A stretch of 64,000 nt of DNA. Source: Neolewinella xylanilytica. GTDB lineage: Bacteria > Bacteroidota > Bacteroidia > Chitinophagales > Saprospiraceae. A model generated the notes under the pieces. It had not been told where the DNA came from. It was given only the letters and a program-made list of their open reading frames with translations, and did not search any database. The stretch spans positions 1,302,001 through 1,366,000 of the forward strand of contig NZ_PTJC01000005.1 in NCBI RefSeq assembly GCF_002934605.1, given 5' to 3'. Position numbers and translations under genes: made by a program. Every line of letters begins with the position of its first letter. The first letter of the stretch is position 1. Below are positions 31,734-33,656 of the stretch, in pieces.

Positions 31734-31927
31734 TCGCCGCAAGCGACTAAAGGGCGAAGCCCACTAAAAGACTAAAGAACTAAAAGACTATCAAACTACC
31801 CGCCGCAGGCGACTAAATGACTAACCGCCGCAGGCGACTAAAACGGCGAAGCCGACTAACAGACTAACCCCCAAAGGCGACTAACAGACTAACAGACTAA
31901 CGAACTAACAGACTAACGAACCAACAG
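31728..31927 (+). repeat. GACTAA repeat array with GNA-triloop mini-hairpins
   Basis: About a dozen exact GACTAA copies plus several one-base variants (CACTAA, GAACTAA) fill the 195-base gap between the TVP38 gene and dnaX. Some units are preceded by short hairpins with GNA loops: CGCC-GCA-GGCG at 31801-31811 and 31826-31836, a one-mismatch copy at 31735, GGGC-GAA-GCCC at 31752-31762 and CGGC-GAA-GCCG at 31844-31854. The first GACTAA contains the stop codon of the TVP38 gene. Confidence 0.85.
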
Positions 31928-31928
31928 A

Positions 31929-33656
31929 CTATTCCTCCGGTCGCAAATCAAACCGCCGCCGCAGCTCATCCAATGCCGGATTTTTCTCCCGCATTTGCAG
32001 GTATTTATCCTTTGCCGAAAGCCGTTTCTTAACCTTGGCCTGTACGGGTTTCAAACTCTCGTCGTGCTCGAGGATCATCACCAGGTTCGGCCGTTCGAAG
32101 GTCTTGCGCAGGTGGGTGATGAGGCTGTCGTCGTCTCGCAGCGAGGCGATGGCCCGGGCCGATCCCACTTTCACGACGACTTCCTCTTCGCCGTGTAGCA
32201 CGGGTAGGGCCTGCTTCAGGAAGACGGCCAGGGGGGTGCCCTGTTGCTCGGCCAGGAATACGTCCCAGGCGCCCCGCAGGTGCTCGGCATCCAGTTCGGG
32301 CAGTTCCTCGGGGGCTGCCGCGTGGTCGATTTCCTCCTCGGCCTCGGCAATCAGGCTGCTCATATCGACGCTGGCGAAGGAAGCGGATCCCAGTACCGGC
32401 GCGGGTGCCTTGAGGGGGGGACTTTCGGGAGTTAGCTCGCGGGGCTCGCTCGCGTCAGGACTTTTTTTTTCGGCGGCGGGCGCGGGTGCAATGGGCTCGG
32501 AAACCGGTAAAGCCGACGCGGTAGGGGCCCCAGCGCTCACCACCAGGGCCTCGTTGCGGAAGGCCCGACGAATGCTCACCATGCGGAGCAGGGACATTTC
32601 GACGTGCAGTCGCTTGTTGCGGGCCAGCTTATAGTTCAGGTCGCAGTCGTTGGCCAGGTCCAGTACGGTCAGCAACAGGTCGGCGGGGGCAAGACCGGCT
32701 TGCTGCCGGTATCGCTCCCGTAGCCGATCGCCTACCTCGAGCAGTTGCAGCGTAGCCGCATCCTTGCAAACGAGGAGGTCGCGGACGTGGGCCGCGAGTC
32801 CGTTGAGGAAAAGATCCTCGTCGAAGCCCCCCTTCAGCACCTCGTCGAAAAGCAACAGCATTCCCGAGCGATCCTCAGTGAGGATGTAGTCAACCGCCCG
32901 GAAGAAGTAGTCGTAATCGAGTACGTTCAGGTTCTCGATGACGGCCTCGTACGTAATGGTTTTTCCACTGAAACTCACGATCCGGTCGAAAATGGACAAC
33001 GCGTCCCGCAGTGCCCCGTCGGCCTTCTGCGCGATGATGTGCAGGGCGTCTTCGTCCGCTACGATGCCCTCCTGCGCGCAAATCCCCTGCAGGTGCTCGA
33101 TGATATCGTTGGGCTGAATGCGCTTGAAGTCGAAGATCTGGCAGCGGGACAGGATCGTCGGGATAATCTTGTGCTTCTCCGTCGTGGCCAGGATGAAGAT
33201 GGCGTAGGGGGGAGGCTCCTCCAGCGTTTTTAGGAAGGCGTTGAAGGCCTGCTGCGACAGCATGTGGACCTCATCGATGATAAACACCTTGTATTCGCCA
33301 TGCTGCGGCTGAAAGCGTACCTGCTCCGTCAGCGCCCGAATGTGGTCCACCGAGTTGTTACTCGCCGCGTCCAGCTCGGTGATGTTCAGGCTGGCGTTGT
33401 TGTTGAAGGCTACGCAGCTCGGACAAACGTTGCAAGGCTCGTAGTCCGCCGTGCGGTTTTCACAGTTCAGCACCTTGGCGAGAATGCGCGCGGAGGTCGT
33501 CTTACCTACCCCCCGCGGCCCGCAGAAGAGAAAAGCGTGGGCCAGATGGTCGGTCTGCAGGGCATTCTTCAGCGTCTGGGAAACGTGCCGTTGCCCTACC
33601 ACCTCATCGAAGCGGACGGGACGGTATTTCCGGGCGGAGACTACGAAGTTGCTCAT
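31929..33656 (-). CDS. dnaX: DNA polymerase III subunits gamma/tau
   Basis: The ATG at 33656 (MSNFVVSARKYRP) is the family start, giving 575 residues; the open frame upstream to 33755 is ignored. The AAA+ clamp-loader domain has Walker A GPRGVGKTTSA, a zinc site CENRTADYEPCNVCPSC, Walker B VFIIDEVHML and sensor regions ATTEKHKIIPTILSRCQ. A Pro/Ala-rich linker (about 385-430) and the tau tail follow. The linker holds the run GAA AAA AAA AGT (A9, 32462-32470). A -1 slip there gives AAG TCC TGA, a stop two codons later, so a gamma-like product of about 400 residues is predicted. tau/gamma load the sliding clamp at the replication fork. A TATCTTCG box precedes the ATG. Confidence 0.96.
   Translation of the reverse strand: MSNFVVSARKYRPVRFDEVVGQRHVSQTLKNALQTDHLAHAFLFCGPRGVGKTTSARILAKVLNCENRTADYEPCNVCPSCVAFNNNASLNITELDAASNNSVDHIRALTEQVRFQPQHGEYKVFIIDEVHMLSQQAFNAFLKTLEEPPPYAIFILATTEKHKIIPTILSRCQIFDFKRIQPNDIIEHLQGICAQEGIVADEDALHIIAQKADGALRDALSIFDRIVSFSGKTITYEAVIENLNVLDYDYFFRAVDYILTEDRSGMLLLFDEVLKGGFDEDLFLNGLAAHVRDLLVCKDAATLQLLEVGDRLRERYRQQAGLAPADLLLTVLDLANDCDLNYKLARNKRLHVEMSLLRMVSIRRAFRNEALVVSAGAPTASALPVSEPIAPAPAAEKKSPDASEPRELTPESPPLKAPAPVLGSASFASVDMSSLIAEAEEEIDHAAAPEELPELDAEHLRGAWDVFLAEQQGTPLAVFLKQALPVLHGEEEVVVKVGSARAIASLRDDDSLITHLRKTFERPNLVMILEHDESLKPVQAKVKKRLSAKDKYLQMREKNPALDELRRRFDLRPEE
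32462..32470 (-). promoter_or_regulatory. A9 slippery run in dnaX (predicted frameshift/slippage site)
   Basis: On the coding strand nine A's follow the G of a Glu codon. The zero frame reads GAA AAA AAA AGT CCT GAC. The -1 frame (or one extra A in the mRNA) reads AAA AAA AAG TCC TGA and stops at once. Similar A-runs make gamma from dnaX in E. coli (ribosomal -1 shift) and Thermus (transcriptional slippage). Confidence 0.65.

Follow-up and report, generated by a model that had tools for sequence, protein, structure and literature searches.

The dnaX gene of Neolewinella xylanilytica contains a run of nine A's (A9) shortly behind the part that encodes the clamp-loader core, and we regard it as quite probable that this run is a programmed slippage site used by RNA polymerase. 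From the sequence of the gene and its relatives we infer slippage, the polymerase as its agent, and the production and use of gamma, the short clamp-loader subunit. RNA polymerase would stutter on the nine A's, yielding dnaX mRNAs in which the run has 8, 9, 10 or more A's. Translation would give tau (575 aa) if the message has 9 or 9+3n A's, whereas 10 A's would lead to a stop codon two codons later and a protein of 400 aa, and 8 A's to a protein of 407 aa. Both short products would represent gamma, that is, the complete clamp-loader ATPase minus the tau-specific C-terminal part. In the following, the frame reached with one added A, which is also the frame of a -1 shift, is called the +1-A frame, and that reached with one A fewer the -1-A frame.

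The features of the gene are listed in Table 1, with positions in the window, i.e., the whole 64-kb stretch of DNA that was analyzed. The coding strand at the site reads GCC GAA AAA AAA AGT CCT GAC, and the run extends from the second base of codon 396 to the first base of codon 399 (window positions 32470 down to 32462), as a first-pass annotation had proposed. Direct reading of the gene also confirmed the annotated length of 575 residues, with a computed mass of 64.1 kDa. With one added A, the protein ends with ...APAAEKKKS before the TGA and has a computed mass of 44.67 kDa, in accordance with the forecast that an extra A or a -1 shift would give a product of about 400 residues and 44 kDa ending in EKKKS. 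In contrast, the claim that the other outcomes do not end so quickly had to be corrected: with one A fewer, the protein ends with ...EKKVLTRASPAS before the TAA, after 407 aa and with a computed mass of 45.34 kDa. The two stop codons thus follow the run at distances of two codons (TGA) and nine codons (TAA). The annotated position just behind the clamp-loader core was also correct. In a domain profile search the clamp-loader domains reached residue 368; domain III is the last part of the shared core, and the run lies about 28 residues further on. The zero frame encodes tau and does not end at the run, and thus this dnaX is not a split dnaX gene.

Table 1. Positions of dnaX, its proposed slippage site and the predicted ends of its products in the window
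Feature	Position	Strand	Basis
dnaX, DNA polymerase III subunits tau/gamma, 575 aa	31929..33656	(-)	TIGR02397, 435.6 bits over cut-off; PF13177, PF22608, PF12169
A9 run, proposed slippage site, codons 396-399	32462..32470	(-)	sequence and conservation in relatives
TGA in the -1 / +1-A frame, predicted end of gamma at 400 aa (...EKKKS)	32455..32457	(-)	sequence; TGA at the same distance in 18/18 run-bearing genus genes
TAA in the +1 / -1-A frame, predicted end of a second gamma-like product at 407 aa	32432..32434	(-)	sequence
gamma/tau domain III, PF12169, residues 237-368	32553..32948	(-)	5.1e-5, 23.5 bits (slightly below the curated cut-off, 24.4)
tau-specific linker and C-terminal region, not in gamma	31932..32461	(-)	reading frame; similar tau region in the shifted frame of 24/25 flipped relatives

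The A9 of dnaX is the only run of at least nine A's or T's in the window, which has a GC content of 60%, and 23 distinct runs of A9 or longer were found in the genome of 5.38 Mb. For the single gene, synonymous resampling gave a probability of 0.087 for a -1-frame stop as near as the TGA and of 0.75 for a -1-A stop within 10 codons, as is the TAA; neither value is significant. Judged from the sequences, it is the comparison with relatives, and not the single gene, which decides that the dnaX site exceeds chance.

The genus sample comprised 21 genomes, 20 of which had a dnaX match, with 67-90% identity to the N. xylanilytica protein in full-length matches. At the same place, 16 of the 20 genes have an A9 and two an A10, whereas the dnaX genes of two genus members (L046 and L047) do not contain a run of A9 or longer. 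All 18 run-bearing genes, which due to their kinship represent fewer than 18 independent events, have a TGA two codons on in the +1-A/-1 frame. The alignment with close relatives that the annotation had suggested as a check thus came out in favor of the site. The outcome it had named as contrary evidence, an interruption of the run by synonymous changes among close relatives, was not observed down to 67% protein identity.

The encoded peptide, EKK(S/T/N)-P/A-(D/E), is also present in 18 of the 18 run-bearing genes. Lysine is encoded by AAA at the site, whereas AAG is preferred elsewhere in these genes (316 AAG versus 191 AAA), and the expected share of GAA-AAA-AAA among EKK in the genus is 6.7%. 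The proline codon that carries the hidden TGA is CCT in 17 of 17 cases, compared with 63 of 588 prolines elsewhere in the same genes; the eighteenth gene has GCT (Ala) instead, with an identical TGA. As far as can be read from codon usage, the genus genes depart from their own synonymous preferences in using AAA-AAA and CCT here.

The analysis was extended to the family (168 genomes, composed of 152 of 184 matched genomes and 16 from the genus-level search) and to the class (the 89 best-scoring of 284 matched genomes, family members excluded). In 152 of the 168 family genes and in 79 of the 89 class-sample genes, a run of A9-A11 follows the DEVH motif at a distance of 225-275 codons. Taken together, the site carries A9 or longer in 231 of 257 dnaX genes, in contrast to 4 of 1278 windows of equal size taken from other parts of these genes. 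Among the 30 best-scoring genes from other classes of the phylum, 15 have A9 or longer. However, the site is dispensable in many lineages: 16 of the 168 family genomes lack an A9 at the site, and of 80 database loci retrieved by protein similarity (L059-L138), 39 have a run of A9 or longer and 41 do not, the latter being mostly titled Bacteroidaceae, Prevotellaceae or Bacteroidales. In two of the loci, titled uncultured Crocinitomix (L100 and L101), the zero frame ends 245 codons behind DEVH and no A-run of at least 7 is present there; perhaps these are gamma-only genes or genes with another shift signal.

For the analysis of reading frames, a set of 231 genes with A8 or longer was used, from which two ambiguous genes had been excluded; it is distinct from the above-mentioned count of 231 genes with A9 or longer. 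The run is A9 or A10 at 216 of these sites. It starts in phase 1 of the codon in 182 genes, in phase 2 in 26 genes and in phase 0 in 23 genes. The occurrence in all three phases indicates that nucleotides are conserved rather than one peptide.

Other runs of A9 or longer in the N. xylanilytica genome were considered when they lay in sense orientation deep inside a long frame, with at least 100 codons before and at least 60 codons behind the run. Besides dnaX, three such runs were found. The first, an A10 (G000:C1:924597-924606), lies in L421 (G000:C1:923233-925380), with other-frame stops 4 and 12 codons on. We take L421 to encode a ligase-like domain, a membrane helix and a PASTA-like part, with the A10 between ligase and helix. 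The A10 is present only in N. xylanilytica and its nearest relative, i.e., in 2 of 20 genus loci, and L433 has an A8. The second, an A9, lies in L446 (G000:C2:2059010-2061046, minus strand), a single frame of about 690 aa, at the junction of two parts, presumably a RibF-like (FAD synthetase) part fused to a glycosyltransferase-like part (RibF-GT2). Of the 20 genus genomes that gave a match, 18 have a near full-length one, but among 18 genes read only that of N. xylanilytica has the junction A9, and L454 has an A8. Both runs, which had seemed as promising as that of dnaX, were rejected as further programmed sites, as neither is kept in the genus. This contrast, albeit of two examples, shows that conservation of a long intragenic A-run of N. 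xylanilytica is not a matter of course. The third run lies in L281. In the stretch that separates dnaX, at its 3' end, from the convergent neighboring gene (31763-31931), there is an array of 8-base units (GACTAACA, ACTAAAAG). Three consecutive units (GACTAANNGACTAANNGACTAA) gave 66 matches, including overlaps, at many places in the own genome, and the reversed pattern gave 0; the array is thus a member of a genome-wide family of short tandem repeats.

Slippage of RNA polymerase predicts that the second alternative frame is also closed and that tau may be found in the -1-A frame, so that the frame spelled by the DNA would be nearly indifferent. To quantify closure, the frame leading on into tau was taken as reference, and a stop codon within 10 codons was scored as closure. 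Both non-tau frames are closed in 214 of the 231 genes (92.6%), or in 213 of 229 without the two A8 genes. The corresponding share was 30.1% at positions downstream in these genes, 26.3% when codons were shuffled and 33% under synonymous resampling. At the corresponding location of 60 dnaX genes that lack a run, both frames are closed at 23.0% of the positions. Among 50 representatives with less than 65% core identity, both frames are closed in 43 versus 17.4 expected, and among 22 representatives outside the own family in 18 versus 8.2 expected. For the -1-A frame alone, 40 of the 50 representatives have a stop within 7 codons, versus 23.7 expected. The -1 frame is more tightly closed than the other, with a stop within 3 codons in 81.8% of the 231 genes. 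CTGACCTAA follows the run in 13 of 152 family genes, and the pattern CTGANNTRA, a short stretch that gives one stop per alternative frame, follows it in 32 of 152. Within the own genus, the second closure is less pronounced: 13 of 18 genes have a stop within 10 codons in both frames, and the -1-A stop, which is often later, has a median distance of 7 codons.

The register in which tau is encoded was also not uniform. In the 231 genes, tau is in the zero frame in 206 cases, in the +1-A frame in 23 cases and in the -1-A frame in two cases (L345 and L354); outside of this set, L406 is a further case of tau in the -1-A frame. The 25 genes whose zero frame ends at the run, here called flipped, belong to 9 family and 16 class genomes, and on a tree of the DnaX core (FastTree) at least 19 register switches were counted. 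When the shifted-frame C-terminal part of the flipped genes was aligned with the tau of a relative, the score exceeded that of every one of 200 shuffles in 24 of the 25 cases, and only L295 failed. L419 and L420 show this split-dnaX state as well, with the zero frame giving gamma and tau being reached by a shift. It appears fairly likely that dnaX is "register-free" in much of Bacteroidota. Slippage on A9-A11 would supply all three frames, selection would act only on the presence of the run, of a single open frame and of two early stops, and the frame spelled by the DNA would drift; plain gene calling would then cut an essential gene short in many genomes. It is this drift that is new in the results, whereas the dnaX gene of N. 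xylanilytica itself joins the known Thermus kind. A site that is kept across many lineages of a phylum while its open frame drifts through three registers was not found in the openly readable texts that were searched.

Alternatively, a uniform mRNA could be subject to programmed -1 ribosomal frameshifting on A_AAA_AAA, by the mechanism known from E. coli but on a different heptamer. The gene, the outcome and the logic of the -1 product are the same as in E. coli, the 400-aa product would be identical to that of the message with one added A, and the tighter closure of the -1 frame is what a -1 shift alone would select, so that frameshifting could contribute. However, E. coli dnaX uses a -1 frameshift on A_AAA_AAG together with an SD motif and a stem-loop, and none of the three was found in N. 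xylanilytica. In the 18 nt upstream of the run no SD-like sequence was seen. Downstream of the run, the 231 genes gave no signal of structure (z of -0.25 versus -0.31 for the control), in accordance with the annotated lack of a clear stem-loop. Seven genus genes (L048, L049, L051-L053, L056 and L058) have a predicted fold below -21 kcal/mol over 60 nt, yet no consensus structure was obtained downstream of the run for the 18 genus genes (alifold 0 kcal). A downstream hairpin and an internal SD motif were therefore both rejected as stimulators. In the larger set, the zero-frame heptamer A_AAA_AAG is present in 38 of the 231 genes, and SD-like tetramers precede the run in 16.9% of the genes, compared with 10.1% and 12.6% in controls; given these two elements, some relatives may use a ribosomal shift. 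Nevertheless, frameshifting explains neither why stops are in excess in the second alternative frame nor why tau is in the -1-A frame in L345, L354 and L406, and as an account of the site in N. xylanilytica we consider it unlikely. The drift of the register, the closure of both frames and the lack of an SD or hairpin signal favor RNA polymerase slippage over frameshifting of the E. coli type. The preference for transcriptional slippage in the first-pass annotation, which had been based on the missing stem-loop, was strengthened by the dual closure and the occurrence of tau in all three registers. A demonstration of slippage by an RNA polymerase of Bacteroidota was not found in the literature searched, as far as its texts were available.

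The argument from the flipped genes, though not that for the site itself, would be weakened if the flips were homopolymer sequencing errors. Any single flip could be an error of plus or minus one in a run of A9-A11, and many of the genomes are in many contigs and are probably metagenome assemblies. One flipped gene, L341, differs by one A from its near relative L353, and single flips of this kind could be errors. However, the flipped state recurs in pairs of genes that are closest to each other on the tree (L181/L191, L231/L243, L343/L357 and L301/L342), five species of a single genus have it (L401-L405, g175), and it is also present in one-contig genomes (L401 in G408 and L408 in G507). Furthermore, L343 and L357 differ from L349 just behind the run, while the run length is equal. 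The recurrence and this difference outside of the run length show that sequencing error is not the explanation of all flips, and the tau similarity of 24 of the 25 shifted frames (not of L295) also stands against it. That the flips are errors is therefore improbable.

Very unlikely is a sliding of ribosomes in both directions on poly(A) codons, by which they would land on either stop. Sliding on A-runs, with termination at out-of-frame stops, does occur in E. coli ribosomes, and such sliding would account for the closure of both frames. However, in the E. coli in-vitro system an A11 led to robust truncation, whereas A9 and A10, the lengths at the great majority of the sites analyzed here, led to little (PMC4363877, as far as its text was available). 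Least probable of all is that the run is kept for the peptide Glu-Lys-Lys-(Ser/Thr)-Pro or by codon bias, with no slippage and with gamma either missing or produced proteolytically, as is the case in Caulobacter (PMC5009743, available text): the peptide is indeed present in all run-bearing genus genes and many relatives manage without the run, but the codons at the site run against the genus preference, the run occurs in three codon phases, and the tau of the flipped relatives requires a shift.

RNA polymerase slippage in dnaX is established for Thermus thermophilus, where it occurs on an A9 with stops in both other frames (available texts of PMC1088944 and PMC5009743). As in T. thermophilus, the A9 of N. 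xylanilytica is in the coding strand after the clamp-loader core, tau is in the zero frame and both other frames have stops; gamma is known to arise from mRNAs of altered length in T. thermophilus and would do so here. A ratio of gamma to tau of about 1:1 is also expected of the Thermus type. In contrast to T. thermophilus, the organism belongs to another phylum, the -1-A stop is less tight in the genus Neolewinella, and slippage is a prediction from the sequence. The GeneTack study reported that dnaX is split in 17 genes from 12 genera, with an A10 in nine cases, and named Chlorobium and Chloroherpeton (PMC3711429). Its input included 22 Bacteroidetes genomes, and Bacteroidota may be among the nine A10 species. 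The flipped relatives, with gamma in the zero frame, tau reached by a shift and an A-run, are of this split type, whereas the N. xylanilytica gene is unsplit. A description of tau in the -1-A frame, as in L345, L354 and L406, was not found in the passages of that study that were consulted, and a report of dnaX slippage in Bacteroidota was not found in the openly readable texts searched.

Taken together, the results support selection for a short clamp-loader subunit in many lineages of Bacteroidota and thus bear on the debated need for gamma. The sites form a natural series, with A9, A10 and A11, three registers, and absence in L046, L047 and 41 of 80 database loci, in which the evolution and the loss of RNA polymerase slippage can be followed. 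In addition, dnaX frames of about 370-440 aa in Bacteroidota are often not broken genes.
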